Source of the DNA: Taxawa tesnikishii (nom. ined.)
Lineage: Eukaryota; Ascomycota; Dothideomycetes; Dothideales
Reading direction: 5' to 3'
DNA: 64,000 nucleotides
Assembly (NCBI GenBank): GCA_030247885.1
Contig: JAPDRO010000017.1
Location: 62,001 to 126,000 of the forward strand
Below are positions 2,207 through 63,540 of this stretch, in pieces (position 1 is the stretch's first letter; the number at the start of each line of letters is the position of its first letter). The notes under the pieces are model-generated. The model was given only the letters and a program-made list of their open reading frames with translations. It made no database searches and had not been told where the DNA came from. The position numbers and the translations under genes are program-made.

Positions 2207-3734
2207 ATGCACGCGCGCCATATGCAACCTTCTTCTCCGCTTACATCCGTTCCAAACTTTCGTCGGTATGGGTACCGCCAGTTTGAATCGGATTTCTGGC
2301 CTTCAGAGACACCTTCGTGGGTAAGATTTTTCCTCTCTTTGGGAGATGGCTGGCTAAGAGACGCTTCTACAAAGTCAGCGGTACTGGACTCTACTCCTAC
2401 TGCCTCTCATCCCTGCCACGATCAAGACACGACTGTGGCGATAGCATCAAGTGCTGCGGCCACTCGTATCACGTCAACCGCAGAAAGTGCCTGGTCTACA
2501 GATTTCTCTACAAGCACTTCTACCAGCCACTCATCGACTGATGACCCGTCTCCTCCAATTGCATCAGCCTCAACATCTTTACAGAGTAAATCCGATATAT
2601 CGACTAACGATGTTACCACGCATTTTACAAGGACTATGACCTCAACCATGTTTCTGACTTCAACAACCACCATTCCTAAGCCGTCTTCCGCTTCGATACC
2701 CGGAACAACCAGTGCAAACTCCAGCACGTCTGGTATTGTAACAGCTCCATCGTCATCACCAGATACTCCAACAGCTGGAACACTATCTGAGAAGATTGGC
2801 GACGGTCGGGTCCCAAAACGCGCCGCGCTGATAGGCGGACTCACCGGCGCCATGGGTGGACTCGTCTTAATCGGACTCCTTCTGTTTCTTCTTCTTCGCC
2901 GACGTCGTCCTCATGATTTCCCCCGGTCCCACTCTCCCCATTCTTCCAATCTCTTTGCCTCTTACCTCAGCCCTGACCCCAACGCCTCCTACTCCTGGAA
3001 CTCGAAAGCGGCCCCGCAACTACCACCGGTCCGCATATTCACCCTCCCTGTCATTGATGACAACGTCATCCGCATCTCTTTGGACCATTGGGAGCGACCA
3101 TTCGCCCGCACCGAGTCCCTCAGAGATTCGAAAGGTCTGGTGGAATTACGCGTCACCAATCCCGATCCGACGCGCCCTTCGACGCCGCGTGTGCCCACCG
3201 CGTCTTCTGCACGATTTTGCAGCGGCAAATATCCTCTTTCGCCGCTTGGACAAACGCGCTGCGCTCAGCATCGCAGACGACGCTGCCACAGCACGAGCCA
3301 ATGGGTGGGTCGTCGCCGGCCACGGATCGCAGGTTAAGTAGAGAACTGCGCGTCGCCAGCGGCGCGCCGACACCACGGCCGACCTCGGTGTGGTCCAAGA
3401 CCTCGACGATATCAACTCGTGTACTTCGACAAAAGCCGCCCGAGGACCCGTTCTTGGGCCCCGGTCCTGTGCGACCTGTGTTGTCCACACTGCAGCCGGT
3501 CGCGAGCCGTTCAAACAGCAATTGGACGACATTTCGACTGAAGTCCTCGGGGAGGCGTCGAGGTCGACATCTGCGTCCTCGGTCCCTCGATCGGAGAGAC
3601 GGGCCACGGGGACCACGTGGAAGACAACGACAACGACGACCAGCGATCCGTTTTATCTGGACAGGGAAGGGAGTTACCGGAACGAGAGGGGCCAGACACC
3701 GAATTGGACCGTGCATGCTTATGAAGGGACATAA
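2207..3734 (+). CDS. Ser/Thr-rich single-pass membrane protein (cell-wall sensor-like)
   Basis: Unrecognised beyond its architecture. An extracellular region very rich in Ser and Thr (about residues 60-200, likely O-mannosylated) leads to one transmembrane helix (AALIGGLTGAMGGLVLIGLL, residues about 206-228) and an Arg-rich stop-transfer (LRRRR). A basic, Pro-rich cytoplasmic tail follows. This is the layout of fungal WSC/Mid2-like surface proteins, but no cysteine-rich WSC domain is visible. The first frame stops at 3337. Coding-like sequence then continues in a second frame (about 3230-3550) and a third ending at 3734. The latter switch sits at a GGGG run (3549-3552), the same defect seen in other genes here. 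No signal peptide is evident at the 2207 ATG, so the true start may be on an upstream exon. Confidence 0.5.
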
Positions 3735-8155: not shown

Positions 8156-8668
8156 CTTTCCTTCAGTATGCCGTGTGTGCGCTGTTGTGGTATGCGCTCG
8201 TGGTGTGGATGTAGGAGATGGAGATGAGACTGTATGAGTAGGCTGTATGAGTAGATGCGGCGGTGCTGTAGGCACAACAGCTTCGGCGACTTCCGGAAGC
8301 TTGGCGTTGCAGCAAGCAGCGCATCGCATTCCACTTCGTGCACCTCGCGCTCAAAGCCACACACGAATCGAGGGCTTTCAGTGCCAATTACTTGTCCGTT
8401 TCCAGCCTTGGCCAGACGCTCCAGAATCGTTTCCGCTGCTGTCCGCTTCTTCACTTTTCCGTGGTGAAAGACGCGGTTTCATGCCCTTCGGAGCTGTGCG
8501 CCCGCGCCCAATCATCACCCCACCGAAGCGTCAGGCCGTCAACAGACACAACCGAACACCACCACCTACTCTGCCACCACCGCGACTCTACTACGATCCT
8601 CACACGAAGACCACTGGCCGGTTCCAAACCACTGAGAATGAGTGTAGCATGATCTAGATCGCGCTTGC

Positions 8669-13363: not shown

Positions 13364-13771
13364 GGGTCAGAATGATGGTGGCTGATGTTGTTTCTGGCGC
13401 GCGCAGGAGGGGCAAGACGTTGACGAGTCGCATGGATGATGGGTTATGGGTTCTGGTCTGGTCTGGTCTGGTGTGGCATGGTCGGGGTTGGAATTTGTGC
13501 GGGCGCTTCCGGAGAGGGGTTAGAGGGTTTCCACGATTTCTCATGCCACACGAGCGCGAAGCATTTGGGAGTGTGAGAGGATGCAGAAGATGATAACGTG
13601 TCAGTGATAGCCGCGCGCTGGCGAGCTGGACGCTTTAGCTTGTAGACGGCCGCTTGCGATGGTAGCTTGTAGAACGAGAAAATGAAAGCTGAACAGACGA
13701 CGTTCTCAAAAGCCCAGCCTGGCATTAGCGAGTCGCAAGGTGGTAAGTCATTGCAGACGACAAGCCCGTGT

Positions 13772-13849
13772 GAGGTATGATAGTGTTGTATGATAGTGAG
13801 GTATGACAGTATTGTATGATAGTGAGGTATGACAGTGTTGTATGATAGT
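13772..13849. repeat. Three copies of a 26-bp tandem repeat
   Basis: Units at 13772-13797, 13798-13823 and 13824-13849 differ at two positions only (T/C and G/A transitions). The unit is itself built from two related halves containing GTATGATAGT or GTATGACAGT. Confidence 0.85.
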
Positions 13850-14298: not shown

Positions 14299-14312
14299 CG
14301 CGTCAACACCCA

Positions 14313-14350: not shown

Positions 14351-14473
14351 CCATTCTTTGCGACACCACGCCCTTCAACCCCACCACCCATGCTGTAGCT
14401 ATACCATCGACACCACACCAGTCGCCGAGCCACGCTCTACTCTACCTGACACTGCTCGCCAAATCCACCCACC

Positions 14474-16495
14474 ATGTTCTACTCGGATACGCTGCTGTCC
14501 AAGACCGGGCCTCTGGCTCGCGTCTGGCTGGCCGCCAACATGGAGCGCAAGCTCACAAAAGCAAACATCTTGCAGACGGACGTCGAAGACAAGGTGCACC
14601 AGATCATTGACACTGGTCAGGCGCCTATTGCGCTGCGTCTGAGTGCCCACCTGTTGCTCGGTGTCGTCCGCATCTACAGTCGCAAAGCGCGTTATCTGCT
14701 CGATGATTGTAACGAAGCCCTCATGAAGATCAAACTGGTATGCCTGACGTTCTCCATCCCCTTATCCCAAGCGCGATCTGCATTCGGTACTGACTGCCTG
14801 ACGCGCAGGCCTTCCGCCCGGGAAATGTCGACCTTCCAACCAGCCAAGCGCACACCGCCAACCCAGAGAACCTGATACTGCAGGAGACCATTACTATTGC
14901 CGATCTGGACGTCGTCCTTGGACCGCCTTTGGGAGACCCCGATCTCCTCCTCAGCGAGGCTGGCAGACGCGCACCCACCGAAGATCCAACGCTTCTCGAT
15001 TGGGGTACCAGTCAGATCCTCCAGCACAGCGTAGACACCCATCGAGCGCAAGATGACACAATGGGGCTTATGGAGGACGACCTTGGCATCGATATCGGAG
15101 AACCAGACATCACCGAGCCTGCCGATGTCACCGAACGCAGTATCGAAGCCGGAAGACGCGCAGAGGCTGCACGCGCCGATCTGCGCGACGAGAGCATGCT
15201 GTATCAGGACGACCTTCCTATCGACCTCGGCTATGACGAACCCACCGTCACACGTGAGACCGACATTGCTCCGATCCCCGAGGAGGAGCTGCATGTTGGG
15301 GACGATGTGGAAATGGGCGGCATGGATGATTTCAATCTCGGAATTGAGGAAAGCAACATGTCGGCTATAGCGCGCGCCGAAGAACGTCAACAAAGGCAAC
15401 GCGACACGGCCTCTCCGCTCTCCGAAATCGACCCCGAACAGGAGCGCGAGCTGGAGCAGACCTTCTACCTCGACCAACAGGCCGCGCAAGAAGAGGACGA
15501 GACCATGGCGCAGGCGCAACAGCGCGTCAAGCGCCGCAGGGTCCTGCACGCCGACGCCACCACCGAACTGCACAACTCGCAAATCAAAGCGCAGCAGGAA
15601 GACCGCAGCAAGATCCTCCGCGCCCCGACTTTCCTGCCCCGTGATCCCGTCTTGCTAGCACTCATGCAGATGCAGAAGAGCGGCGGTTTCGTCTCATCCA
15701 TTTTGGGCGACGGCCGCAGTCTCGGTTGGGCACCCGAACTGCGTGGCGTGTTGTCGTTGGAAGTGGTCCGACGCGCTGGAGAACTGAAGCGCAAGCGTGA
15801 CAGCGGACTGCCCGCGCTCGACATCCCGGCAGACGAGCCGCTTCCCTCGCCGACCGCCGAACCAGGCGCTCCTGGTGTCACCACCAGCCCGGCGCCCGAG
15901 GAACAGGAGTTCGAAATCGGTGGCGAACCTACCATTCCTGACATCACGATCGAGCCCGTCGCGCCCGAAGATGAAGCCGCCGCCGCCCCGACAGAAGACG
16001 AGCCATACTCACCCGGCGGGGCGCCTCTTTCACCGGGCGGCCCCGGTTTCGACGAGACCACCCTCCCCTCGTGCCCCCGCCGATTCCGGACCCGTCTCCA
16101 TCCCCACCGCGCACGCCGTGCACGCCCTCCGCTCGCGCTTCTCAATCCTCGCGGGCCAGCACCCGGCCTCCACCGAGCCGCCGTCACCCAACACAAGGCG
16201 CCAACAATCCGTCCTCTTCACCGACCTGTGCCCCGAAGCGACAACCTCGAAGCAGGACGCCACGAAGATGTTCTTCGAGATCCTGGTGCTCGGCACAAAA
16301 GACGCCATCAAAGTGGAGCAGAACGCGGGCGTCGCCGCCGCAGACATGCGTCTCGCCGGCGACATCAGGATCAGGGGCAAGCGGGGGCTCTGGGGCGAGT
16401 GGGCCGAGCAGGGCGTCAGTCAGATCGGCACCGGCGGCACCCAGAGCGCCGCCGGCGCCATCGAGGCCATGCAGGACGTGAACCCGCTCGCCTAG
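14474..16495 (+). CDS. RAD21: Cohesin alpha-kleisin subunit Rad21/Scc1
   Basis: Closes the cohesin ring between Smc1 and Smc3 for sister-chromatid cohesion and repair; nuclear. Exon 1 is 14474-14737, the intron GTATGC...GCGCAG is 14738-14808, and exon 2 runs from 14809. The N-terminal kleisin domain is complete (MFYSDTLLSKTGPLARVWLA, later RLSAHLLLGVVRIYSRKARYLL). An acidic middle contains SEAGRR (14953-14970) and SIEAGRR (15139-15159), which resemble budding-yeast separase sites. The C-terminal winged-helix domain (VLFTDLCP, then ATKMFFEILVLGTKDAIKVEQ) lies in another frame ending at 16495. The switch lies between two C runs, 16065-16068 and 16074-16078; one more C in each would give one continuous frame through the expected LPLVPPADSGPVS segment. 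No GT-AG intron can bridge it. I treat it as an intact gene with two base-call losses, not a pseudogene. Confidence 0.9.
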
Positions 16496-16912: not shown

Positions 16913-19900
16913 TCAGCGGCACAGTGGTCGCGCTTGAGGTATACGAGTAAAACCAAGCTTGATCTTTTCGACAATTCCGCTCCCCGTTTCGGACATATGC
17001 AGGGATAGCTCCGCTCTATCGGGCATCTCTCTAACCATCGAAGAACAAAATTGTACAAGGTAAAAATTAGTGGCGAACATGCCTGCCCCCCCCCCCCCCC
17101 TTTTTTTTTCTTCCCAAGAACCAAAAAACAGAGCACGGCCAAAAACTCGTACACTACTCTCTCTCTCTCTCTCTCTCTCTCTAGACATTCCTGCTGTACC
17201 CGCCCACCAAACCCTTTTAGCGATCCTTCTCTCGTACCACTTCCTGCCCTCGTCGACCCAGAACACGGAACTCGCGAGCAGCGCCAACCCACCCAGATCG
17301 CGTAAGGCGAGCGCCTCGGTCTGGAACACGCTCTGCAGGGGCGGGAAGTACACGACGAGCAACTGGCCGGCCAAGCTGCCGGCGACGGCGAGGTTGAACA
17401 TCCTATTGACGCCCTTGCGGCCCCACAGCCGCAACTCGCCGCGCAGGAGGGACTTTGTGGCGGAGCGGCACGTGAGCGCGTTGAACATGTCGAAGAGCAC
17501 GAAGGCGGTGAAGGTCAGGGTGGTGTCGCGCGGGCTCACCTCGTGCGCGGCCAGGTCCGCGGCGCTGAGGTTGCTGATGTAGGTGTAGAGCGTGCCGAGC
17601 ATGATGATCAGGCCGGATTGGAAGACGCGGCGGAGGAGCCGTGGGGTCAGCACGCGTGAATGCCGGGAGCGGGGTGGGAGGGTTAGGTAGGCGGGGTCCA
17701 CGGGTTCGACGCCCAGGGATTGGGCGGGCGGGCCGTCCATCAGGATATCTGGGGGTATGGCGTGTTAGCGGCAGTAGGGGCGTGGAGGTGAGTGCGTTGC
17801 GCATGGACGGTGTGGGATGGGGTGGGATGGGAAGAAATTGGGAGGAAACGGGGAAGCACTTACTGATCCACAGGATCTGCATCGCATTAAGCGGATTCTT
17901 GTACCCCAACGCGCTGCTCAGCATGACGAGCCCCAGCGCGGCCGCACTCGTGCTGAGCTGGAACGTCAAGAAGTTCTGGATATTGTAGAAGATACTCTTG
18001 CCCTCTTCGATGGCGTTCAGAATGGTGCTGAAGTCGTCGTTTGTGAGAATCATGTCGGCGGCCTCCTTGGCCACATCGGTGCCCAGCTTGCCCATGGCGA
18101 CGCCTATATCCGCCTTCTTGAGCGCAGGGGCATCGTTGACCCCATCTCCAGTCATAGCTACCACATCGCCACGGCTCTGCAGCGCTCGGATGATCTTCAT
18201 CTTGTGCTCCGGGCTTGTGCGCGCGAAGATTGAGGTTCTGACTATGGCTTGGGCGAGGTCGTCGTCGCTCATACGGTCGAGTTCGTCGCCGCGCAGCACG
18301 GGCGATCCCACGGCTGAGTTCATGTTCACGGGCATACCCAGCTTCTTGGCGATGGCGACGGCGGTCGTTTCGGCGTCGCCAGTGATCATGATGACCTTCA
18401 CGCCGCCGGCCATGAGCCGTCGGATCGATCTGTCCACACCTTTGCGTGGTGGATCGCTCATGCCGACCAAGCCTGCGAAGCAGAGGCCTTGGTAGACGTG
18501 CTCGTCGTCCGCGCCCGACTTCTCCTTCCCACCACCCGGTCGCGGCGTGGCGTTGCCACTGCGTGCGTGCGACCCATTGGGCCTGCGTGACTCGCGTATC
18601 GGACCGCTCGCAAGACCGAGAACGCGGAGACCGTCTTGGGCCATGGCTTCGGCGGCCTGGAACGCCTCCTGGCGTCTGCGCTCGTCGAGTATGACCTCAC
18701 CGCCCTGAGGCGTGAGGTATGTATCGCAGCGTTGCACGACCTTCTCCAGCGCACCCTTGATGTACGCGACTTCCGAGCCGTCAGATTGAGTGACCACGCC
18801 CATCCACTTACGGTCGGAACTGAATGGGGTCTCTCTGGACCTGTGCAAACTTTCTCGGATGTCATCTTCACCGAACGCATCTAACAGGTCGAGCAACGCG
18901 ACGTCCGTCGGCTGGCCCGTCCAACGGCTCTTGGCGTTAGCCAGGTCGCCGCCCATCGTGGACGACAGTATAGCGGCCGAAGCGGCCGTGGCGTGCGAGC
19001 TTACGCCGGCGTTCAAGCGTCCATTGTTTACGATATTGCCGACCCTCAAGATCGTTCGCGTCGCATGGTCTGCAGGCGCTGTGGCGTGTACTTTGACCGT
19101 GTCGACGGGGCTTCATTTTCGAAATGCCACATCTTGGTCACCGTCATGTGGTTCATGGTGAGCGTGCCTTACAACAAGTCAATTAGAATCGCTGCGCCCC
19201 TTTGACGACTTGAGGCTCTAAACCTACCTGTTTTGTCGCTGCAGATCACGTTGACGGAGCCCAGCGTCTCCACACTCGGAAGCCTGCGCACAATCGCATG
19301 CCGTTTGGACATGCGCAGCACGCCCAGGGCGAGCGTAACAGTCACGATGATCGGCAGACCCTCCGGAATAGCAGCGACGGCCAGGGAAACGCCAATCTGG
19401 AACAATTCAAGGAACGGCCAGCCCCTCCAGAGTCCGATGAGCATGATGAAACCAATGATGCCGAAAGACATGTAGCTGAGCTCTTTTCCCAACCGATCCA
19501 TGGACAGTTGTAGAGGCGTCCTGGGACTTTCTATTTCTTGCAACGAGGCGGAAATGGCCCCGAATTCTGTGTCTGCTCCCGTTCCTACCACAATGCCCTG
19601 TCCGTACCCAGAACGCACCAGCGTGCCCATGAATGCGATGTTTGTCTGTTCGTTCAACCTGAGGTCCACACCGACCGCGCCAGAAGCCTCAGATGCGTAA
19701 ATGGGCGACGATGGGGTGGAAGGTCTCTCCCGTGCAACCGCACTTCTGTCCAGCGTCGCCGGGGACTTGTTGACCGGCTCAGTCTCGCCCGTAAGATTTG
19801 ATTCGTCAATGGACAAGTCGGCCGAATGCGTGATCCTGATATCCGCAGGCACACGATCTCCAGTATGGAACAACACAATGTCTCCCTTGACCAATTGTGT

Positions 19901-20533
19901 CGCAGGCAGTGTCGTAGATGCTCTTTGCGCAGCCGCCAAGCTCGTCACATTGTCTCCAACGGCATCCAATTCTATTGATCCATTCTCTTTCGACCCTCCG
20001 TTTTCCTGGCGCCTTGAACCGCTCCGGATGACATGCGCCGAGTGAGGGACCAAGGAGTTCAGCGCTTCAATCGACTTCTCCGACCTGTACTCCTGCACGA
20101 ACGCAACAGTGACGACAATGGTGACTGCGATCGCTATGCTGACCGCATCCTCATAGTTTCCCATAACCGCAGAAATGGCGGCGGAAGCGAGCAGCAGCAG
20201 AATAAGCGTCTCCTGGAACTGCTTGACGAATCGCAGCCATAGTGGCTCTGGTTCCTCGTGCGGTAACTCATTTGGTCCGTCGCTATGTAATCTCGCCTGC
20301 GCTTCTGATGGTTGCAAGCCATGCGTCAGGGAAGTGTATAGGCGTTCGGCGGCCTCTTGGGGTGTGAGGACAGAGAAGCCAGATGTTATTGATCGTGGGC
20401 CGCCGCCATCTCTGCGCCGTGACGTGGACGGTGTTCGAGTTTCAGATCGGTTTGGTGGGTGTGGTGTGAGGGATTTTGCCGCGTCGCGAGACACATTGTA
20501 GAGTGGCAGCGCAGGCGTAGAGGATCTGGACAT
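16913..20533 (-). CDS. PMR1: P-type Ca2+/Mn2+-transporting ATPase, Golgi PMR1 type
   Basis: P2A ATPase pumping Ca2+ and Mn2+ into the Golgi. Exons are 19228-20533, 17864-19167 and from 17748 downward; introns 19168-19227 and 17749-17863. Visible: N-terminal cation-ATPase domain ([10 protein letters not shown]...GPNELP), actuator [13 protein letters not shown], phosphorylation loop ICSDKTGTLT split by intron 1, the nucleotide domain, hinge [22 protein letters not shown], and C-terminal membrane helices with [14 protein letters not shown]. Frame is lost once, at GGGG 19107-19110 (plus strand): after FENEAP the frame changes before [14 protein letters not shown]. The C terminus is uncertain. The recognisable protein ends near [12 protein letters not shown] (about 17200), but the frame stays open through a CT microsatellite (read as Arg-Glu repeats) and a C15T9 run to a stop at 16913. 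Confidence 0.88.
17086..17183. repeat. C15-T9 homopolymer and (CT)n microsatellite
   Basis: Bases 17086-17100 are all C, 17101-17109 all T, and 17158-17182 an uninterrupted CT repeat. Both lie at or just beyond the 3' end of the PMR1 coding region. Their lengths are likely unreliable in any assembly, so the reading frame of the predicted PMR1 tail cannot be trusted. Confidence 0.85.
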
Positions 20534-33879: not shown

Positions 33880-34941
33880 ATGGACGTCCCCGTAGCTGCC
33901 AACGTCCTGGGCACCATGGGTGCAGTACGTCCTTCAATCCGCTCAGCCTTCCACTCGTAGTCTGACAGAAGATGCTCGTAGGTATGCTGGTCGATCCAGG
34001 TGGGTTGGCAAGACTCGCCTGTCCGTGACAACCTGCTAAACAGATGTGCTATCTAGCTCGTCCCACAGATCATCATCAACTACCGCAGGCATAATGCAAC
34101 AGGCCTTCAACCAACCATGATGATGTTCTGGGCTTGGGCAGGTGTGCCACTGGGCGTGTACAACATCGTGTCCGATTTCAACGTTGCCCTGCAAGTACAG
34201 CCGCAGATCTTGGCCTTCCTAAGCCTGTTGACCTGGATTCAGGTGTATTACTACGAGAAAGTGAGCCTCACTGCGATCCTTGCTCTGTATAGCCTCAACC
34301 TACTAATCGATGTGAATAGCATTGGTCGGTAATGCGTTCACTCACCGTTATTCTGCCAATTGCCGGTGTCATGGCCGGTATCGAGGCCGCTCTGATCTTT
34401 GCATTGCGTATCGGTCTATCACGCGGCACGCGCTGGCCAGTGACGCTCATGGCCGTACTTGCGGCGCTTTTTTGGCACTGGGAGTACTGAGGCATTATTG
34501 GGACATTTATGTGCATCGTACGGTCAGAGGCATCTCATTTATTTTCTGTGGAATTGATGCGTTGGGCGATTTGACTTCGCTGATCTCGGTCTTTTTCAAC
34601 CTTCATTTGATGTGTTGGGTATGATCATCTACGGGGTAGAGCTAGTGCTCTGGCTTGGTGTGTTCGCTTGCGGTGGGTACTTCAATCTAATGCCGTGGAT
34701 GAAGAGAAGGATTAGCAGCGCTTCGAGAAGGCCTTCTTCAGATCGTAGCGGGGAGGACGGTGCAGAACATCATACGGCCGGGCGCGACACCTCCGAAGGG
34801 ATCACTCTATACGACCTGCCCTCCTCGACATCAGTCTTCCGGACTCCGTCCGGCGAGCTTGCTGCCCGTTCAAGAGCAAGCATCAGACAGAGCGGCTGCG
34901 AAAGTCGCAACCACATTGGAGGAAGTGCCCACATCGCCTAA
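33880..34941 (+). CDS. PQ-loop repeat membrane protein
   Basis: Seven-helix membrane protein of the PQ-loop family (lysosomal/vacuolar amino acid or ER transporters); substrate unknown. Four exons: 33880-33924, an 18-nt microexon 33982-33999 (VCWSIQ), 34057-34260 and from 34320. Introns of 57, 57 and 59 nt have proper borders. Key motif VPQIIINYRRHNATGLQP follows the microexon, then MMMFWAWAGVPLGVYNIV, QPQILAFLSLLTWIQVYYYE and RGISFIFCGIDALGDLTSL. Frame is lost twice in exon 4: at T6 34468-34473 (before LALGVLRHYWDIYVHRTV) and near 34597 (before PSFDVLGMIIYGVELVLW). The Ser-rich cytosolic tail ends at 34941 in the third frame. The conserved sequence on both sides of each break argues for missing base calls. 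Confidence 0.8.
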
Positions 34942-39837: not shown

Positions 39838-42800
39838 TCAATCCCGGCCTCCTGTAGTTTCAAATCTTTCCTGAATCTGCCCAGATCCCACCGAATCTTT
39901 GTGGATCCACTGAATGGGAGCACCATTCAATACGTACTGTATCAATGACCGCAACGTTGCGCGTCCCTTTCCTTCCCACGCATCTACCTCGAGCCCCTCG
40001 TCGCCATGCTCGTCCATCAATCTCTGCATCTCGTCCCTGCGCTGATCGAACAGCAGTTGTATAGATCCTTTGCCGTGAACCCCTAGTCTCCGCACTGCAC
40101 CCTTAGCAGCATCTGCCGTTTGTACCTCACTTCCTCGCCTGTCGAGCAGTAAAGCTAGAGATTCCATGCTGCTCTCCGCTGCAATCTCTACTACCCTTGG
40201 TGTGATCTGCACATCGTTCCCGTACCTGTCAAGCAGTAGTCCTAATATCTTCGTACCGCGTGCTGCAGCTTCAGTTATTGCTGGCGTCACTTGAAAGTTG
40301 TTCCTAGATCTGTCGAATAGTAACTGCATCGCCTTCTTGCCTCTTTCCCTGGAGATGTTGCCCGCTGCGGCCTTGACCACTCCTGGTGTGATCTGAACTT
40401 CTGCTCCGCACTTGTCGAGTAGAAGTTGAACCAGCTCCTCAGCCTCGACAGGATGGCCCAATGCAGCCTCTATCACTTCTGGTGTGACCTTCACCTCATT
40501 CCTACGCCTATCGAGTAGCAGTTGTATCACTGCTGTGGCACTCCCATAACCGCTCGCTGCTGCCTTTACTACCCCTGCTGTGATTTTTACCTCGCTCCCA
40601 CGCCTGTCTAACAGCAACTCCATCACATCGCTGGAACTCCTCGCTACTGCCGCCACCACCTCTGGTGTGATTTCGACCTCGCCTCCTCGCCTGTCTAACA
40701 GCAACTCCATTACACCGCTGCAACTGATCGCTGCTGCGGCTTCTACTACTCCTGCTGTAACTTTTATCTCATGTCCTCGTTTGTCGAGTAAGAGCTGCAT
40801 CACTCTCTTGTCTGGGGTTTTAGAAACCAGTCTACTGATGCTGCAGCCTCGAGTATCCCGGAAGTGATATGCACCTCGCTCGCGCGCTCACAGAACAGTA
40901 ACTCCATTACTTGGTATGCCTCCCCGCTGTTTCCGTGGATGATCTCCCGTATTCTTGCTTCTGTTACGCGGAAGTTCCGACCTTGTGGATGCCGTAACAT
41001 CGTTTTGAGCACGCGATAATAACCCGATGCCCCATGCTCGATAGCCATGTCCAACGTGGTTTCGTCGAGATCTTCGACCTTCGTGGCCAAATCGCCCTCC
41101 AGTACCAACTCCATCAGCCAAGCTGTGTCAGTCTCAAGAGTGATGTCAACCAGCGTACAGGGCTTAGTAAAACAGTATTTTAGGGAACTGTTTTGCCGCA
41201 TCCACGCGAGTTGCCCGGTCGCTTTGTCGGAGAAAAGCCTTTCCAGCACGTTCAGTCTTCCTCGAGCAATTTCGGCGTTTTCTACGTGTATATACCACCA
41301 ATCGGCAGCATACCGGAAGAAGGCGCCATTGTCAGACTCCTGCATGGAATAAATTTGAGACATCCAGAGCTATCTGGAGCATGCACCGACTTACCTTCGA
41401 TGACTTTGTCAACTCGTCGATCTCGGACTCATCCGAATAAGACTCATCCAAATCAGACTCATTCGAATCCTCGTCTGCCCGAGAACAACCATGAAGCAAC
41501 AGATAGTCCATACAACTGTAAGCTATGAAACGTTTTGGTGGCAGTGAAAGATCTCTCTTGTGGCTGAAGGGGTCATGCTCTTTAAGAAAGTCTTCCAGTG
41601 ACTGGTGGATAACGAAGACCCTGTTGTCGACGATGTCCAATAAGACTCCGAGCTCCACACGAATGTCCTCTTCTGTCAAAGTACCTACAACGTCCTCAAT
41701 CTGGACATGCTGGTTTGTGCTGGCCTGCGGGCTAACGCTGATTGCCTCCGACAATGCGGCGACGGTTAGTGGCTCCATTGCGTACACCACCCATGCAAGT
41801 ATGTAAGCGTTTTCTTTATGCCGTTCGAGTGCCTCCGCAACTAAGGGTTCGTAGAGCTCATGAAGCTCAACCGAGCTAGCATTTATTTCTTGCTTGATCT
41901 TAGGTATGGAAAGGTAGGCCATCCTTGCCAGACGCCGAACGACGATAGTGATCCAGAGGAATGTCCTGCCAGCTCTTCGCTGGAGCTCATCGAGGATGGC
42001 CTGGCGCATGTGATTGTCGAACTTTCTCGGGAGACGCTCTATGCTGCCACGTATAAACACACTGAGATCATCCGGGTTCGCTCGCAGCTCTCGCGTTGGG
42101 TAATGACCCCATCCGTTGAGGATATCGCCATGTGGTCTGCTTGTACAGAAGAGTTTCATCACCGGTCTATCCGTCGCCCCCTTCGAGCCGAAAGCCCCGG
42201 TCAGATGATGGACTAGCTCAACCATCCCGTTGCTGTAAACGTCAAGGCCATCGATGACGCAATAAACGTCCTGGTACACTCTGCTAGAGAGCATGCACTG
42301 ATCAAATAGATCCCAGAGGACGCTAAAAGGCGCCGAGAGGAACTTCTCACTGTCTCTCTCGAAATCTTGCGGAAGACATTCGTACAAGCTACGCTGACGC
42401 TCACATAGCTGGACGATGAGTGCCCGAAGTATGGCTTCTGCGGTACGATCCCGTGCTTCATTCCTAATCGTGCAGAAGTAATAGAGGACGATGGATGCTG
42501 GACCGTTGCCCGCTCCGCTTTGCAGGGCCTTTTCCATATGCTCGACGACGAAGTTCGATAAAACCGACTTGCCTCGTCCGGGAGGGGCCGTGACTAATAA
42601 GCAACCCGAGATCTCTGAATCTCTCCACGCAAGGAAATCTACGCTTGAGAGAGCCGAGTCTTTGGTCGTGGCACCATTGCTGGGGGCAACAAGCCACTGG
42701 AGCGTTCCCATCTCTGGTTTCGCAAGTTTGTCCGAATTTCTGATTTTGGAGTACGGTGGTCTGTTCATGGCGTTCCATGCTCGCTTTTGTTGTGGCATAA

Positions 42801-44657
42801 GGTCTGTAGCACGGATGTGAGTCACCCGCATTACTCAATACGTTCGTAACGCATGGGCAGCGCTCTTAACAGTCAGCTCCACCGACTGACTAACTACTAT
42901 CGCAATGCAGCGGCACCGCTAAGCAAGCATCAAGGAAAGTAGATGCCCAGAGTCTTGTACCTTTGCCGCTGCTGCTGAGCGGTTAGGGCGAGCATAGCAC
43001 ACCCTTGAATCTAGATACATTTCATGTATGCACAAGAAGGGGGCTTGTTGCTGCCTTGCGATAGTAGTTGGTCGGTCGGTCGGTCGGACTGTCGAGAACA
43101 CCGATGCATGGCATGACCTTACAGACCTTCAAAGTTCCTGAACCGGCCTTGCACAACCCGTGGTGCTTCTTCAACAAGGTCGTGTATCTTGTCCATTACT
43201 GAAAGGTACTTCTCGTCTGGTCGTTGCTCGAATCTGACCAGTCCTCGGTGGTCAGTCGCAAGTGGTATGTGCTTATCATCACGCACACGATGGCCAACGC
43301 GCTCGGCCGAGACTTTGGTGACCATCATCGTAGAAGGGCCATTCCTCGTTGGTGCTCCATCCTTGATCTCTATGGTAGCACTCTCTTGTGTCTCGTAGTA
43401 TGAAACAATCTCGAACTCCGCTTTCTGTTCAATCGAAGCTTTGACAAATTTGTCTGTTAGTTCTCTTAAGTAAGCTGAAGGCTCCGAATCCTTGTCTGTA
43501 ATCAGATCTCTAATCAACCCTTCATTCGGTTGACCGTCAACGACTGTCAGCAACTGTTCGTGTCTGAGGCCAAGGTTGGGCACTCCGAGGAACACGAGGC
43601 CGTAGGTGGACCGATAAATGTTGTTGCTCTCCCCACCACTGCTGTCTCGCGCTTTTGCGATAGCCTAACAGATTGCATATGACTTAGCCACTCGCTATCG
43701 AGAAGAAACAAACAGAGGCAAGACTCACTTCTTTGACTACTAGCCCACCCAAGCTGTGGCCGATGAAAACGATGGGGCGATGGCTTGTCTGACGCGCAAT
43801 TAGCCCTAGTTACCAAATGTCGTTGACACAGGAATCACCTTCGTCCGCTTCCGAAACACGCCCAGACTATCCAAGAAACTCTTGGCCAGATCTCCAATAG
43901 AGCTTTTGCTCTTGCTTCCGGCGAGTCTTGTATCATACCCATACACCAACACGCGAGCTTTCGGAATATCTTTGCGCAGAAAGTCTCGAAGCCATACTTT
44001 CCATCCATCGCTAGAACGAAAGGATCCGAGAGGATGACCACCAAGGCCAGAAAGTGCTACCACACTACGAGATGCAGCACGTAAGTGTATGTTCCGGTGA
44101 TCCCTTTTTCATGAATACTCACTCTACAGAAGCCTCATCCGGGACGAAAAGTGGAGTAATGCCTAGAAAGTCTTCCTTGCACACCACGCCTTCCACATTC
44201 GGCTCGATGGTGCTGGTAATAATTGCATACCAGCTATCGTCCTCTTCTCGAACAAAGTCCAGCAAGGAACGTTGACGACCGCTTGCATTATCCTGCTTGC
44301 CATAAAACTCTCGCAGTGGAGCTTCCAGCTCTTCGCGTGTATCACCAACAGCACGCCAGAACTTGGGAGGTCTGGGTGCTGCGGTCTTGGTTGAGTCCGG
44401 TTTTGCTGAATTGGCTGATTCGGGATGGAGTAGCTCGGAAGTCGATGGTTCGGGTGTGGATGTAGAGACCTTTGCACGCGCTCTTCGGCTTGCAAGCGAC
44501 GCTGTCTGGACAAGTATATCAAACCCAACAACGAAGCGATGGTAGTGATGAGAGCGAGGACTCCATAGTCATTCTGCAGCTCCATAGAGAACACTGAGCT
44601 CTGCGCCATACCTCTCAGCCGGTAGGAAGAGTGTATGACCGTTCCGAGCTGCAACAC
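39838..44657 (-). CDS. NLR-like protein: hydrolase (SesB-like) + NACHT + ankyrin-like repeats
   Basis: Fungal NOD-like receptor, probably in non-self recognition or incompatibility; about five exons, start between 44657 and 44585. Order: a possible membrane helix (VLALITTIASLLGLIYL); an alpha/beta-hydrolase domain with LSGLGGHPLGSF, VLVYGYDTRL and nucleophile elbow FIGHSLGGLV, ending RFRNFE; a 323-nt intron (42804-43126) holding a MITE-like insert; a NACHT domain with P-loop APPGRGKS and Walker-B YCVIDGLD; an intron (41340-41394); then about eight 30-residue repeats of the LLLDRRGxEVxITxxVVxAAA type to the stop at 39838. Frame is lost near 40814-40821 and 44468-44480, and the junction near 43805 does not resolve. 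These fit the window-wide base-loss pattern, but real decay cannot be excluded for an accessory gene. Confidence 0.75.
42880..43087. mobile_element. MITE-like insert in the NLR intron
   Basis: A segment of about 208 bp with imperfect inverted ends. The left end at about 42880-42912 contains CTAACTACTATCGCAATGCAG. The right end at about 43050-43087 is its near reverse complement, with CCTTGCGATAGTAGTTGG and a GGTC tandem. Several differences between ends are C/T transitions. Removing it would leave an intron of about 115 nt, normal for this genome. Target duplication was not determined. Confidence 0.55.
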
Positions 44658-45166: not shown

Positions 45167-45278
45167 AGCACGAGTGTCACAACTGAGGAAGCGTTACATA
45201 TATTTACACAGGTTCATGGCTCACTGAAGATCGAGAAGGTGCATACAATCAATCAATCCAGCCAACCCCTCACCAACC

Positions 45279-46236
45279 ATGTCTTCCCCACCACCCCACC
45301 ATCCCACTTCCGTCAACAACACCCACCCTCTCGCCGGCCAACCCACGCGCGCACACTTCGATCCCTGGAATTCCTCCTCAACCGGACACCAACGCGCGGA
45401 CAATCGTCTCTCAGGCAGCACATCATGGCGTCAATCTCGCTCTCTCAAGTTAAGCTCCCAATTTGGCGGCGGGCTGAGCGGCGGGAAAAGAGTCGCGGAC
45501 ACGGTGGGCGCAGGTAGTGAGGATTTCGGCAAGGATGACAGGCTGGCAAATGGAGGGTGGGCGAAGGGTGCGAAGGGGTTGAGGACGGGTGGGCAGTTGA
45601 GTCTTATGGAGAGTTTTGGGGTGCGGCTAGAGTGAAGAAAGAGGGTGTTACGAATGGCGATCTTGACGAGAAGAAGAAGAAGGGTCTGGAAGGACACGAC
45701 CGCGACAACGGCGCATTTGGCGACGACAGTGCGCTTGGCGTTACGCAGAACCGGTTCGAGGAGTCGAAGCGAATCGAGTCACAGAAAGAGGTACTGCAAG
45801 AAGGAGAATTACATCCGCCAACGTCAAAAACACCGCAAGTCTTCGCCGGCCTCACAATCTACATAAATGGCTCCACTGCGCCAACAATCTCAGACTACAA
45901 ACTCAAACACCTTCTCGTATCCCACGGCGCAAACATCTCCATCGCACTGGGACGACGCTCAGTAACACACGTAATCCTCGGACGGCCCAACGGATCCGCT
46001 CAAGGCAGTGGTGCTGGAGGCGGGTTATCCAGCAGCAAGATACAGAAAGAGATTGCACGCGTAGGCGGCAAGAGTGTGAAGTTCGTGAGCGTCGAGTGGG
46101 TGATTGAGTGCGTCAAAGTGGGCAAGAAAGTCTCCGAGGCCCGGTTCGAGTGTCTGAGATTAGCGCCGAAGGGGTGGGGAGTGTTGCAGGCATGTTCGCA
46201 AAAGCTGGCAAGAAGAACGAGAAAGACGGTGGATGA
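45279..46236 (+). CDS. BRCT-domain protein (REV1 N-terminus-like)
   Basis: Probable DNA-damage-response protein. The start MSSPPPHHPTSVNNTHPLAG leads to a Ser/Gly-rich N terminus with HFDPWNSSSTGHQRADNRLSG and GKRVADTVGAGSEDF, which I recall from small fungal BRCT proteins. A single BRCT domain follows in a second frame: VFAGLTIYINGSTAPTISDY, LKHLLVSHGANISIALGRR, SVTHVILG and VKFVSVEWVIECVKVGKKV. This resembles the BRCT domain of Rev1, but no polymerase region follows. The first frame stops at 45633; the switch lies at GGGG 45618-45621. A second likely loss near 46171-46179 would give the end GMFAKAGKKNEKDGG (stop 46236); otherwise the printed frame runs to 46579 with non-coding-like composition. 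No intron explains either change. Confidence 0.72.
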
Positions 46237-46973
46237 GAGACGCCGATCAACCGGCAAACCCCTACATCACACAAAACAGCATAATCACGAGGGACCGCAT
46301 ATCCGGAGTCAACAACAGCGCTCGCCACCGCGGTTGGTAAGTTGCGAAAGACCGAACGGTATTCCAGAAGAAGAGCCAATCATGCTGCATTCCCATGATT
46401 ACAAGAGCCTCATCCAAGACGGCCAACATGGCGCAAAGAGACCGATGACTATCATGTGTCAGCGTCGAAAGCGCGCCAAGAAAATGGATCGAAGAAGAGG
46501 AGGGAGAAAAAGAAACGATTGTTACAGCTGGATTATCCCAAAGGACGGGATGCCAGCAATTGTCAAGATACAAAGATAAAAATCAAGCACTACTACAATA
46601 CAAACACGTACTTGTTGGCCCGAGTTACTTCGTTGCGGTCTTCGAACAGCTACCGTTATCATGATGCCACACATCACACAGACCAACTACAAAGTCGTAC
46701 GCAGCACTCACATCCACCACGTCAAAGGACGTCCACAGCTGCTCGGTTGTCGGTACTCGTCAGAAGGCCGTTAAAACAAGAAAGAGGGAAAAGCACCGTC
46801 AGGGAAACCCGGAATCCGGCGCCACTACTGTATTGAGGCGAGAAAGTAGGTACCAGAGCATACAAAGACGTCCTAAACATGTTGAAATCGTGGGCAAGAG
46901 CGTGCTGCTTGTAGGTAGAACCTTCGGTGGGGAAAATATATATTATTAACAAAAATGCTTAAAACCAAGCAAC
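46237..46973. other. 3' flank of BRCT gene
   Basis: No gene seen. An AT-rich run (ATATATATTATT) lies just before the tRNA. Confidence 0.35.
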
Positions 46974-49696: not shown

Positions 49697-50216
49697 TTTG
49701 GCTATACTGTACAATGGAGATGTCTCACGACGACACAGCCGCAATAGTAGACATTAAGATTTCAGAAAGGAACGAGGAGGTAGAGTGGCACGCCTACCCG
49801 CACCCGGACTACGCAGCCACGGCAATGTCCCCTTCCAGCCATGGCGATTATGCGGCCTGCGCGAAACAGCAACACCCCCGGCCGCTGATGATGTCGCTTT
49901 CTGTGGAGGGCGCCACAATGACGTTTCCCTCCCAGCCTCACCAGGGTTCAGACGGATCCAAGTTGGCTTCCCCAAAACCGCCAGCCGCCAGCCGCCTGCT
50001 CCAACTTCCTGATTCCACATCGCTCAACACACGACCGAAACCGACTTAATTCAACGAACTTTCGATTGCCTCAATCCTGCTCTCCATTCTCGGAAGAGTA
50101 CTTCTCGTTCGCAACGCACGACTCTTGACTCTTGCGCATTCCCCGATCCCCTCTGCGCACATCCACTGCCACTCGACTCTCAGACCCCTTCACACCGCCG
50201 TTTCAGAAACAGTACA
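49697..50216. promoter_or_regulatory. Shared promoter of acyltransferase and small unknown gene
   Basis: The 520 bp between divergent start codons. Overlapping ORFs of about 110 codons lack any motif. Confidence 0.4.
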
Positions 50217-50801
50217 ATGGCCGCTGTCCCCGCGCAAACGGAATTCCTCGCAGCAACGGCATTCCCTCCGCCCCGAAGCCACGCGCATCTTCTCTCCCCA
50301 AGAACAACATCCGCCAAGCACCGCGAGTGCAAAAGGCCGCGTCTGCGAACGGAGACGTCCCAACGAACGGCGTGAGCTCAGCCTACGCAATTATGGCCAG
50401 CCGTATCGCAAACAGAGTCGCCGAGATGGCTGAGGGCATCACATTTGTTGAGCGGTAAGTTCATGCTTCCGGGACAGCTGCAAACCCGCGATAACTAACA
50501 CCGCTCTAGTCCCAAGCCACAAGTAACATCTCCCCTCGAGGATCCGCAGGAGAAGAGGAAGCCACGCAAGCTCGAGATGCGCTTGAACATGGGAGAGGAC
50601 GTCAAGTTCAGCGCGCCATTCCTCGACAACACCCTTCAGAAGATGCTGCACCTGCAAAACCGGATGCTGTCCAGCACAGCAGACCTGGCCAAGGCTGAGG
50701 GCGTGCCGGAGAAGGTGATCAAGGAGCAAGCTGCGCAGGCCGCTGAGCTCTCAAGAATCATCGCTTTGATCTGCGCCGAGAAGGCCAGACAGGGCGCGTA
50801 A
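50217..50801 (+). CDS. Small conserved-looking hypothetical protein
   Basis: Function not recognised. The ATG at 50217 sits in a good context (ACAATGGCC), but its frame stops early. The coding-like frame resumes after CCCC 50228-50231, so I infer a missing C and an N terminus MAAVPRANGIPRSNGIPSAP. Exon 1 ends at 50454 (GTAAGT), exon 2 runs 50510-50801; the junction rebuilds an Arg codon. The N-terminal half is basic and disordered (KPRASSLPKNNIRQAPRVQK). The C-terminal half is helical (MASRIANRVAEMAEGITFVE, then EMRLNMGEDVKFSAPFLDNT and LHLQNRMLSSTADLAKAEGV), about 160-170 residues in all. The ordered, non-repetitive helical region suggests a real protein-interaction module. Confidence 0.65.
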
Positions 50802-53230: not shown

Positions 53231-54128
53231 CTACTCCCTCAGGTACTCGTTGAACCAGACCACAGCCTGCTCAAACGCCATCTCCTTGGCGAACTTCTTC
53301 CTCCTGTCGTTCGTATCCGCCCTGACCGCAAACCCATGCTCGACGTCCGAGTACAGCGTCAGCTGATACGGGATGTCCATGTCCTTGAGAATATCCTCAC
53401 TCTCCCTCCTCTTCTCTGCCGGGAAGATCTGATCCGTCTCCGCAGCCGCAATGCTCAACGGACCCGTGACGCCCTTCAGTTCGTCCGCCTCCACGAAACT
53501 CGGGTGCGCGGTGTAGCCCACGTCGATGCCTTGGCCGGCGTCGCGGCGTGCCTTGGACATGAAACGTGCGACGTACTTGCCGCCGAAGCAGTAGCCTACG
53601 GCGCCGATCTTCTTGACGCCGAGATCGTTGCGCATGTGCTTGATGACGGCTTCGACGACGGGGTCGACGCGGTCGGGGAGGTGGCCTGGTGGTCCCTTGA
53701 GCCATTTCATGATGTCGAAGCCTTCGGGGCGGTTCAGGGGATGGGGTCGTCGTGGAAGAGGTCCGGCATCACGACAAAGTAGCCGTTTGCTGCGAACTGG
53801 TCGGCAATGCTGCGCATCGGGCGAGTGAGCAACGTGTGCAGGTCGTTGGGGAAACAGGGAGGTTTGGGCATTGTTCGGGACGTACAGTTGGGGGTTGATG
53901 AACTTGTGACCAATGACATCGGATAGGATGAGGACGGCGTTTTCGGTGCTCTTATTCTCGGGGTAAGAGAAGTAAGTCGAGGCTACAATTCGTTACTCAA
54001 ACGCTCCAGTCAGGTCTTCTTAGGGTTGGTACCAGCGTACTCTCGCCGATGTTCTTCATCTCTCCCTTTGCTTCACCTTCGTGCTTGACGCCAACGGTGC
54101 AGCATCTTCCTGGCGGGTTGGAAGCCAT
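53231..54128 (-). CDS. Dienelactone hydrolase family protein
   Basis: Alpha/beta hydrolase of the carboxymethylenebutenolidase type; cytosolic, substrate unknown. Exons 54041-54128, 53886-53982 and 53231-53809 (introns GTACGC...TTGTAG and GTACGT...GCGCAG) give about 254 residues. It starts MASNPPGRCCTVGVKHEGEA, the usual fungal opening, then VLILSDVIGHKFINPQL, FAANGYFVVMPDLFHDDPIP, nucleophile elbow KIGAVGYCFGGKYVARF (catalytic Cys), AAAETDQIFPAEKR (catalytic Asp) and YSDVEHGFAVRADT (catalytic His). The Cys-Asp-His triad is therefore complete. One base appears missing at GGGG 53737-53740: the frame after DDPIP changes before LNRPEGFDIMKWLKG. Confidence 0.88.
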
Positions 54129-55267: not shown

Positions 55268-58200
55268 TCACTGGCGTTTGCGTGTCGCGATAGACCAGCT
55301 GACCCATTCGGTGAAGACGCTCGGCTGCACCGACGACTTGGGATCGAGGTACCATTCGGCTTGGAGGCGCGTATACGCGTTCGCCACTTCGGTGTACATC
55401 TTGACGTCTTTGTTGAGGAGGATCTTGGCCACGAACAGGCTGGAGCGGCTGCAGGCGTTGCTATGCAGTTTGGACGCGTTGGCCTTCATCTCTGTGTGGA
55501 TGTTGTTGAAGATCTCCATGAGATCGTCCGTGTTGTCTGGTTGTGGGAGCTCTTTGCTCTTGCTGCACGAGTCGAAGTATTGCTTGAGCACATTGAAGGC
55601 TTTGTCGGAGACGGCTTTGCTAGTCGTTGTGCGGATTAGCACCGTCAAAGGCATGATCAGGTCGAGCGCGAGCGGGTTGGCGTGGGCTTGCTTGACATAG
55701 ATAATCAAGAGATCGAGAACGCGGCTCTTGAAGTTAACGATAGTCTCTTTGGCGTCTTTGTTGTCCTTCTTCTTCGTGCTAGTCTTCGCCCTTTCTTTGA
55801 AGATGGTCGTGAGGTGCCCATCAAGTGCCTCCATCTAGCCGGAACGTTAGCACTGCGACTTGCAACGCACTGAGACTGCCTACCTGGTCATCATCCATGT
55901 CACTCCCGTCAGACTCTTCGTCGGAATCCCCACCAGCACCCACTCGGGATGTGCCAAGCGCCTCCGCCAACTTCATCTCAAATGCAGTGGTTTCTCCGTC
56001 TCCTTCGTTGTCATCCTCCTCGCCTTCAGACTCTGTGCTGTTTTCCTCGTCTCCGGGAGATTCGGCGTCTTCGTCATTCGCCCCGTCAATCATCTCTACG
56101 TCGGAATCATCTAGACCCTCGATATCGCTGTCGTCCTCTGCACCATCGACTGCTTCTTCTTCTTCTTCTTCTTCTTCTTCTTCTTCTTCTTCTTCTTCTT
56201 CTTCGTCGTCGCCAGCTTGCTCAAACAGTTCCTGCTGCCCTGTCATGTTTTCCTTCTTCTCCAAGATGTCCAGCATGGATTGCAGTCCATCCGTGGTCAA
56301 ATCGGCAGCAAACGCTGTGAACACCTGCTCAGCCAACCGCTTGTAGATTGACGACGGTTTTGAGACGAAGCTCAGGAGAATTTCCACAAGCGTGGTGGAG
56401 GAGTCGTCGTTCTTCCCCAAGATCTGTAGACTTCTTCGAGGTCTGATAGCACGGATACGACGTCTGCTTCCCCGTTGTAGACTTGGATGATAGACAGGGA
56501 ATAAAGCAACTTGAAGGCACGGTAGGCGGCTCTTTGCGAACCTTCCATCTTGCGTTCCTTATCTACGAGCTTCGACAGTGTCTTGACGGCCTGCTTCAGG
56601 ATACCGGACACAGTCTCGTCCGCGCTAAAGAATAGCTTCGATGTTGATTGCTTAGCATACAGCCGTGTGGCGATAGTAAAAGGCAGGACGAACTCGCTGT
56701 CAATTTTGGCCGTTAGTACATGTGTGAGGCATGAGACCATGCGAGCTTGGAACACTTCTTGAGACGCCTTCGTAAACGGCGGAGAGGCAGCCTTGTCTGA
56801 GTCCAGAGCCCCGTATCCGAGGTCGACCATGGTCTCGAAGAGGGATACCCACGGCGTGTTGGACGGTCCACCGTCTGCGACAAGGATAGGCTCTGGACGC
56901 CTCCGTCGTGCGAAGTTTAGAAGCATGTCCGCAAGCATGCGTCTTCTGGAGTCCGCCTGGGCTTGTTCAACCGTTCCCGGGCTCAGAGCGAGCTTTCCGA
57001 TGAGTTTGGTTATGTCAGATGCGCCCTCAGCGTCTGCACGGGAGAGCAGCTCGTCTACCGTCTTCGTTTTTGTGAGTTGGTCAAAGTTGATCGCTCCATG
57101 CCCAGAAATAAGGGCTTCGACGAAAGTGGGCACAGCGTCAGCGTCCGCCTTCGCGCGCTGAACAATCTGATCCAAAGGACCCTTGGCAGCATCGTGTAAG
57201 TATCTATCCTTCTCGTTCCTTTGATTGATAATGCATCGCACAATGTTCGAGCCGAACAGGCAGTGAAGCAATGCTGTAGGAGTCACCACAGGAGTCAATG
57301 CCAGTGATAGGATCTGCAGACCAAGAGCTTTGCGTTCTGTGCTTGCTGATGCTGAGAACAATCCGTTATCTACAGCTTCAATCCAGAACTTTTCAAAATC
57401 CGATGCTTTGTCCTTCTTGCTAGGCTTGTACCGTTCAGCCAAGCGCCGAAGGACAAGCTGCCACGCGAAACTAGGACTGCTCTGAGGCGCACCAGTACTT
57501 TCCGCCTGATGGGTTCCTTCTTCGCCAGGCTGAGCGCTGCTGTTACCTCGCAAGATCTTCGCCACAGTGGTGCGCTCTTTGGATGAAAGCGGATCGTTCT
57601 CGTGCCAAACTCCCTTGGGCAGGTTAATTGTCGGAAAGCCGCGACTTGCTGTGAGCCAAATAGCGATGCCTTCGGGTGTCTTCGCAAGCTTGCGAGCTTG
57701 CAACTTCTTGATCATGTCAGATGGAAATTGCACATCCACGTCACCCTCCTGTGCAACCTGCACCAGGGTGAGCAGGGACTCATGCAACATCAGACCGCAT
57801 TCTCTACGAAGCCAGATGGTTTCTGTTGCGAGCGAATAAACTAGGTCGAGAAGCGATTCCCAGTCCGCAAGTGGCGCGCCTTTCCGGAATAACAACTTGC
57901 TCTGGACTAGGCATTTCAGAGCGAAGCAGCGGCCTAGAAGGTAGTTTTTGCGTTCCTGACCAGATGTGTTAGTGTTGTGTCTTCCTCTCCCGACTTGACA
58001 ACGATCCAACGCTAACCTGACTGTTGCTCCTCACTTCAGGCTCGGTATGCGTGACAACTCTCTCTATCAGTGCAGCGACACGTAGATCAACATTGTCCGC
58101 CGTCTTTTCTCGCAGTTCCGCCGTGAGTCGGAAGACTTCTGTGAGCGCTACTGAAAATCCGGAGCGTGCTGCCTTACGACTGCTGCAAAGACCCTTGATG

Positions 58201-61400: not shown

Positions 61401-61693
61401 CCACTGGACCTCCGACACGCCCAACTCGCAGCACCCTATGCACGCCCGATCTCGACAGCTCGACCAGTCACGTCTGACCAGCCTGCACAACACCACTGCA
61501 AGGGGACTTTAACTGGTATTCTAGCAGTGCATACCGATTGGACATCGCAGTGCAACGATATCTGTACCTGCATCGACCTTCTCGAACGCATCCAATTCTG
61601 GAGGTAAAGGTTTAGAACACCATCCATCCCTCTCCTCAGCCAGCAGCATATACACTCTTCCGTACAATATCAACCCTGTATCCTCTCTCGACA
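58431..61693. other. 3.2-kb gene-free region between POL5 and MIH1
   Basis: Divergent promoter space. I examined both strands: ORFs up to 226 codons (59548-60228, minus) have no motif and look like composition artefacts. A short CAGCGAG-type tandem array lies at 60742-60775. Sequence from about 61250 on is pyrimidine-rich and probably forms the MIH1 leader. A long leader with upstream ORFs would fit a cell-cycle phosphatase gene but is not shown. Confidence 0.4.
60742..60775. repeat. 7-bp tandem repeat (CAGCGAG type)
   Basis: Four to five consecutive GCGAGCA/GCGAGTA units. Confidence 0.75.
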
Positions 61694-63540
61694 ATGATGG
61701 AATTCTCGTCTCCGTTGGCTGCCATGCACCCTCCTCCTCGGCCTGCCTGGGTCAACTGTCGAGACATGCCCGCTTCTCGCCCGATGTTCTCTGGAGCTCA
61801 AACCTACGGAGCCAACAGCTTCAACTTCCGGGATCTCAGCATGAAGAAGCCATCGACCGACTATTTCACCATGAAGGCTCCCGTCAGAGGCTCTTCGCCC
61901 ACTGCCAGCTTGGCAGCGGATCTGTCGACTAATTTCCACATCGACAAGAGGTACAATGCATTCCACGGGTAACAGGTCTAGACCTAGCTCACATTCTGCA
62001 GTCCTCAGCTGCCCACTCCACGCCGTTCGCTGTTCACCACGAACCTCTTTGCTCCCCGCAGTGCTATGGGTAGGTTTCAGCATGTCTAAAACAGCGTGGC
62101 TCGGAACAACGGCTGACACCAGGGAAAGAACATCTCACCACCCCGCCCGTTGACTACGAAGGAGCTACCACCCCGCCGATCCCATCTTCCTCCCCAGGCA
62201 TTGACATGATGGATGTCTCACCTCTTCCCCACAAAGCACCCTGCTTCGTTGCTCGCGTCACCCTTCCATCGCCGTCCCCAGAGCCAACCCCAAGCGATGA
62301 TTACATGCTTGTGCATCAGTCCGGGGGCACACTCTAGGAGTGCCAGGTCATGAGACAATGTTCCCAGTTCAACCTCCAGTGCAGCCGCAACCCAGAAGAT
62401 CGTTACACAGGCCTTCGCTGTCCAGGAACAAAGCATACTCTACAACGAGCGTTCCCCAGAAAGAGAGGACACCACTTCCTACATTCAAGTTCGGCAACGG
62501 CGTGTCAGGGTTGTCTTGCTCTTCGACTCCAACATTGGTGGAAGCTTTCACCGAGTCACCAATGGAGGAAGCTACCCCCACCCCTTCACCATGAACCTCA
62601 TGCCTCCACCCTCCCGCCGCACTTCACTTTCGGCTCAGGGTCGCAGCAATGGGTCACCAATGGGTCAAGTCAAGAAAGCGGCCCCTCGTCCCCGCAAGCA
62701 ATTCCGCAGATCCCACAGCATGTTCGAGCATCCTGGCGATGTGATGAAGCAAGACAGCCCAGACTACGAACCACCACCAAGCCTCGGATCCGTTATGGAC
62801 ATTGATGAGCCTTACAAGCAGAAGCTTCCTCACTTCGTCTCTGAAAGCGAACCAGACAGCCTTCCCCGCATCCATCAAGATACCATGATCAACGTCTTGA
62901 AGGGAGAGTACAATGCCCACTACGACAAGATCGTGGTCGTCGATTGCCGATTTGAGTACGAGTACAACGGTGGTCATATAGACGGCGCTGTCAACTACAA
63001 CGACAAGGAGCTCCTCGCACAGAGACTATTCGACGAGGCCTCGTCGACCCCCAACACCCTCCTCATCCTTCACTGCGAATACTCCATTCATCGTGCACCG
63101 CTGATGTATGTCCCGAACGCCGAATATTCATTGAGATCATTGCTGACAAGTACTGCAGGGCCAAGTTCGTCCGCAACAAGGACAGAGCCGTCAACGACTT
63201 CCAGTACCCCAAGCTCACCTACCCCGAGATGTACATTCTCGAAGGCGGTTACAGCAAGTTCTTCTCCAACCATAGGACCATGTGCTTCCCTCAAAACTAC
63301 GTTGAGATGGAAAACAAGGACCACGAGTACGACTGCGAGAAGGGCTTGGCCAAGGTCAAGCAACGGGTCAAGCTCAACAGGGCGCAGACCTTTGCCTTTG
63401 GCCAACAGTTTTGCCAGATGGAGGACAGCCCCACCGCCGTATCACGCCTTGGGCCGCGCAGTAACAGCATGATCGCCGCGAGTCCAGATCACAGCTTCAG
63501 TCCTCTGGGCAACTTTGCTCGACGCATGGCCTCTTACTAA
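61694..63540 (+). CDS. MIH1: M-phase inducer phosphatase (Cdc25/Mih1)
   Basis: Dual-specificity phosphatase that removes inhibitory Tyr phosphate from Cdk1 at mitotic entry. Exons 61694-61950, 62002-62069, 62123-63105 and 63159-63540. The N-terminal regulatory half contains [17 protein letters not shown] at the exon 1/2 junction and many Ser/Thr-Pro sites. The rhodanese-type catalytic domain has [40 protein letters not shown] and the active-site loop [10 protein letters not shown] (HCx5R with Cys and Arg present), followed after the last intron by [15 protein letters not shown]. Two base losses are apparent in exon 3: at or near GGGGG 62323-62327 (before GVPGHETM) and CCCC 62581-62584 (before [13 protein letters not shown]). 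The catalytic half is intact and ends RMASY. Confidence 0.92.

Follow-up and report, generated by a model that had tools for sequence, protein, structure and literature searches.

One-base frame breaks near short homopolymers in conserved genes of a fungal genome assembly

Conserved genes in this assembly change reading frame at places where one base appears to be missing. These frame breaks are almost certainly homopolymer-length errors in the assembly consensus, and they affect the sampled genome generally. Sequencing error is the most likely source rather than any biological feature, and the affected genes are very probably intact in the organism. In 254 kb of sampled sequence, apparent losses of a base exceeded gains and gathered at homopolymers, conserved genes were also broken on other contigs, and long runs were scarcer than expected. 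The printed sequence would be one base short preferentially where at least four identical bases stand together, and the base calling or the consensus of long reads would be the probable cause. Individual sites that lack family homology could still turn out to be introns, faulty gene models or true mutations. The stretch analysed here, called the window, comprises 64,000 nucleotides (bases 62001-126000 of contig C9), and the whole genome comprises 29.4 Mb in 34 contigs.

Frame changes in the window

The 16 places listed in the first-pass annotation were inspected in all six frames, and the two places in RAD21 were counted as one change. The breaks proved to be present in the sequence as 15 changes between open frames (Table 1). 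The expectation that each case is one missing base, always in the same direction, held for 14 of the 15, all of them -1 steps that leave the sequence short of one base. RAD21 alone steps by +1, which corresponds to two losses or one gain, and it fits a common direction only if two losses occurred in neighbouring runs. The breaks had also been placed nearly always at runs of identical bases. A run of at least four lies inside 13 of the 16 printed intervals and 34597 adjoins T5, while 32911 (CC) and 44468-44480 contain no such run. This placement is no evidence by itself, because the overlap within which each shift could fall extends over 34-935 bp, and none of the 15 overlaps is free of runs of four or more.

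Table 1. Genes with frame changes in the window, with the best bridging-intron score and the corresponding event of the codon-model scan (in order of sites where two are given)
Gene	Span	Strand	Frame step	Best intron score	Scan event
Unnamed gene, weak case (open frames)	3342..3731	+	-1 near 3549-3552 (G4)	4.7	
RAD21/REC8-family cohesin gene	14450..16492	+	+1 near 16058-16078 (one extra base or two short)	2.7	extra base, 16058
PMR1-like P-type Ca-ATPase	17406..20533	-	-1 near 19107-19110 (printed as G4)	5.5	missing base, 19109
BFR1-like coiled-coil gene	31940..33159	-	-1 near 32911	7.2	missing base, 32894 (beside T4)
PQ-loop protein	34057..34938	+	-1 near 34468-34473 (T6); -1 near 34597 (beside T5)	4.8; 7.7	
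NLR-like gene (NPHP3_N/NACHT-type ATPase and DUF7104 repeats)	39841..44657	-	-1 near 40814-40821; -1 near 44468-44480	8.1; 6.3	missing base, 44473 (second site)
BRCT-domain gene	45228..46576	+	-1 near 45618-45621; -1 near 46171-46179, after the domain	6.1; 5.2	missing base, 45539
Unnamed gene, weak case (open frames)	50013..50798	+	-1 near 50228-50231 (C4)	4.7	
Dienelactone hydrolase family gene	53234..53982	-	-1 beside 53737-53740 (printed as G4)	8.7	
POL5 (DNA polymerase phi family)	55824..58030	-	-1 near 56415-56418 (C4)	4.7	missing base, 56425
MIH1/CDC25-like gene	62074..63469	+	-1 near 62323-62327 (G5); -1 near 62581-62584 (C4)	6.5; 5.8	

Family sequence on both sides of every break had been claimed, and Pfam matches bore this out for part of the set. 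In the dienelactone hydrolase gene, the DLH profile was matched from 30 to 51 (weakly, E=0.04, under the cut-off) and from 56 to 217 in the next frame, leaving 11 bases for four profile positions where 12 were wanted; a PDB search for this gene gave one weak match only. The POL5 profile ran from 51 to 560 and resumed in the next frame from 573 to 717; 5 bases separated the two parts where 12 positions wanted 36, a difference of -31. The N- and C-terminal ATPase domains of PMR1 lay in two frames, separated by a variable stretch and by a real-looking intron, which we take to fall in the DKTG motif beside the -1 step. The SPCA1 match to this gene in the PDB search began downstream of the break.

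At the other sites the flanks were less informative. No Pfam match was found on either side of the 3549 break, and none above the cut-off at 50228, in the pieces tested. The junctions in RAD21, BFR1, PQ-loop, BRCT, MIH1 and at NLR 44468 lay outside the matched domains, and their flanking family sequence is presumed from what is known of homologues. Rad21_Rec8_N was found in one frame and the Rad21_Rec8 C-terminal domain in another. The PQ-loop repeats were likewise in two frames, and the middle piece had no Pfam match of its own. The BRCT domain was whole in one frame, with neither step inside it. We assume the names BFR1-like for the coiled-coil gene, which had no BFR1 family match in Pfam and no match in PDB, and MIH1/CDC25-like for the gene with a Rhodanese domain, which lay downstream of pieces that had no Pfam match. 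There was no Pfam match around NLR 44468. Sites without a matched domain at the junction therefore rest on presumed homologues and on the weak intron scores described below.

The NLR-like gene contains DUF7104 repeats in series, whose LLLDRRG units are rich in leucine. Across the 40814 break the repeat spacing was 107 bp, compared with 84-102 bp in the neighbouring units, so no space is left for an intron. Even spacing within one frame is trivial, and the argument uses only the 107-bp interval that spans the break. Elsewhere in the window, a large open frame with a PHD finger and a JmjC domain (8648-12643) was unbroken, unlike its neighbours.

Direction and homopolymer bias across the sampled genome

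Missing and extra bases were called with a codon-model gene finder that imposed equal penalties on both and admitted introns with a score of at least 7.5. The sample of 254 kb combined the window with 19 pieces, each of 10 kb, taken from contigs C1-C10, which is less than 1% of the genome and 10 of its 34 contigs. The AT-rich stretch L001 was left out, and the sample also served as the training set of the model. The scan yielded 159 introns, 44 missing-base events and 15 extra-base events in 128,863 coding bases. In the 190 kb outside the window, 38 missing-base events stood against 11 extra-base events (p=1.4e-4). Half of all missing-base events (22/44) lay within 6 bp of a run of at least four identical bases, compared with 12.5% of random coding positions (p=1.7e-9), whereas this was true of only one of the 15 extra-base events. 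Thirteen of these run-associated losses were at G/C runs and nine at A/T runs, and the remaining 22 losses had no run nearby. Six other scan settings agreed, with p values between 4.1e-9 and 5.1e-8 for the run enrichment and between 4.3e-7 and 0.0019 for the direction outside the window. When 336 random inserts were placed in synthetic genes, 66 missing-base and 87 extra-base events were called, which shows no preference of the model for losses. Clean synthetic genes gave two and four such calls, respectively, in 288 kb.

Within the window, the scan recovered five of the 15 changes as missing-base events and the RAD21 change as an extra-base event (Table 1), and missed the other nine, including both steps in MIH1. 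The sixth window loss was at 43647. Further extra-base events were seen at 3203, 14468 and 22023. The event load of the window (6 missing-base events in 64 kb) was no worse than that of the rest (38 in 190 kb). Taken over all of the sample, the counts suggest that a spurious loss occurs about once every few kilobases of coding DNA, although an uncertain share of these would be missed introns.

A similar picture was obtained from Pfam matches outside the window. Matches to the CCT, kinase, tRNA synthetase and HSP70 profiles formed 64 neighbouring pairs; the rows were picked by eye, and those that stood alone in their gene were dropped, as were a few tRNA synthetase and HSP70 rows that overlapped. 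Thirty-seven junctions had room for an intron, 21 were in frame, and in six the frame changed across a surplus of under 42 bp. Every one of these six was a -1 change, and none was +1 (two-sided p=0.03). The frame-broken families were CCT, HSP70 and kinase, on contigs C1, C3, C4, C7 and C14. The profile excess was exactly -1 in a CCT subunit on C1, at G4, and in an HSP70-family gene on C3, at A4. One of the other four junctions (excess 38) was close to a short intron. On contig C2, several near-equal kinase-domain matches shared the same internal stops (for example near 413883, 810272 and 878577, and near 91522 and 543198); these are perhaps a repeated family or an accessory contig.

Long runs were depleted. 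The 254 kb held 14 runs of seven or more bases where 36.4 were expected from dinucleotides. The yardstick for this comparison was 50 kb of E. coli, which is not a fungus, and there the 14 runs observed matched the 13.7 expected. The surviving long runs included two of C15 and one of C19, so not all long runs were shortened and the shortening was not uniform. In the window, one C15 is followed directly by T9 (17086-17109), within a genome otherwise poor in long runs; C15 and C19 also occur in L002 and L020.

Homopolymer undercalling in the assembly, which the first-pass annotation had proposed, is the best explanation. It was upheld by the direction of the events outside the window, in sequence on which that annotation was not based, by the gathering of losses but not of gains at runs of four or more, and by the uniform -1 at the roomless Pfam junctions. 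In the window itself 14 of the 15 changes were -1; the scan of the window alone found no excess in either direction (6 versus 4).

Introns and other alternatives to assembly error

The frame changes might instead be spliceosomal introns with weak splice sites that we failed to recognise, in genes that are normal and in an assembly that is right. Phase-correct GT-AG pairs of 42-160 bp were indeed present at all 15 sites, with 4 to 73 candidates per site, and a permissive gene model of 264 kb (median intron 64 bp) bridged most of the sites with introns. With that model, four losses and two gains sufficed for the 264 kb, and none of these losses was in the window; the counts of losses and gains therefore depend on the intron threshold. 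In RAD21 this model made a single frame change, which looked like a gain. The scan events at 43647 and 22023 also coincided with introns of this model. However, the best bridging score at each site was only 2.7-8.7, compared with 8.2-12.2 at 13 frame-changing homology gaps in CCT and HSP70 genes. This comparison set was drawn from 20 junctions (18 intron candidates and two frameshift controls), of which only the 13 frame-changing ones were counted; five in-frame gaps (4.3, 6.5, 8.3, 10.7 and 11.5), which are not certainly introns, were left out. Fourteen of the 15 sites scored below the comparison range, NLR 40814 closely so (8.1). The permissive model, which accounted for nearly everything with introns, was dropped, as introns at homology gaps scored much better.

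The profile or repeat register left no room for an intron at the dienelactone hydrolase, POL5 and NLR 40814 sites, and on this ground the highest-scoring candidate, that of the dienelactone hydrolase, was ruled out. Judged by score and register, and at sites without homology by score only, no bridging intron combined a good donor, acceptor and branch point without removing family sequence. The statement that no intron is possible was too strong, given the weak GT-AG pairs at every site, even though the register at these three sites leaves no room for one. The warning that automatic annotation would invent introns was borne out by our own permissive model. Missed introns would, moreover, have given both directions about equally, as in the synthetic control, and would not gather at homopolymers. 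We consider it very unlikely that they explain most of the changes.

Real one-base deletions, reflecting recent gene decay in the sequenced strain, appear less likely still. Natural frameshifts, too, arise most often by slippage at runs, and some of the affected genes, such as the NLR and the unnamed open frames, may be dispensable. Against this, the breaks affect conserved genes that are presumed essential (POL5, RAD21, the CCT subunit and the HSP70-family gene), and in these the family profiles remain strong to either side of the break. On a third reading, the base is really absent from the genes, and the reading frame is recovered in the cell through programmed -1 frameshifting, transcript editing or slippage. 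Slippage would need one dominant direction and an enrichment of runs, as observed, but half of the events had no run nearby and the sites were scattered over unrelated genes. The canonical slippery heptamer for programmed -1 frameshifting is X XXY YYZ, and by eye none was seen at the two exact sites inspected, G4 in the CCT gene and A4 in the HSP70-family gene. We know of no such frame-restoring system in fungi, and this reading has hardly any probability. In its most novel form, which has hardly any probability either, the printed sequence would be right and the fungus would decode many one-base-short genes by -1 ribosomal frameshifting or by the addition of bases to transcripts at short runs; if true, recoding of this extent would be new for fungi.

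Relation to long-read assembly errors and use of the assembly

Deletion errors at homopolymers in the consensus of long-read assemblies were reportedly described by Watson and Warr in 2019. A study of a long-read bacterial assembly describes more false deletions than insertions, with a peak at runs of four to five and with A/T runs affected more often than G/C runs (PMC12007338). According to another source, mostly homopolymer-length errors remain in long-read-only assemblies (PMC8812927). The errors proposed here resemble those in the bacterial assembly in that they are mostly false deletions beside homopolymers that fragment genes, and differ in that G/C runs were hit at least as often as A/T runs (13 versus 9 events). 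For fungi, two reports describe nanopore-only assemblies in which conserved genes break at homopolymers and which long-read polishing cures only in part (PMC7500977, PMC9453082). As in these accounts of Drechmeria coniospora and filamentous ascomycetes, a contiguous assembly here contains conserved genes that lose their frame at homopolymers. In D. coniospora, polishing gave more insertions than deletions (PMC7500977), so the direction of the error depends on the pipeline. In contrast, losses dominate here.

The error type is ordinary, yet it is a trap for annotation. This assembly is not a reliable source of gene models, of pseudogene calls or of claims for novel introns and split genes, and isolated frame breaks next to runs in this genome should be discounted.

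The sequence also contained AT-rich DNA of a distinct kind, whose very strong RIP-like signature, together with the short GT-AG introns of the permissive model, suggests a filamentous ascomycete. GC content was 25% at 38001-39000 in the window and 23% in L001 (C1:100001-110000). The (CpA+TpG)/(ApC+GpT) ratio was 0.04 and 0.03, respectively, with a TpA/ApT ratio of 1.8. Both stretches carry an extreme signature like that of repeat-induced point mutation.
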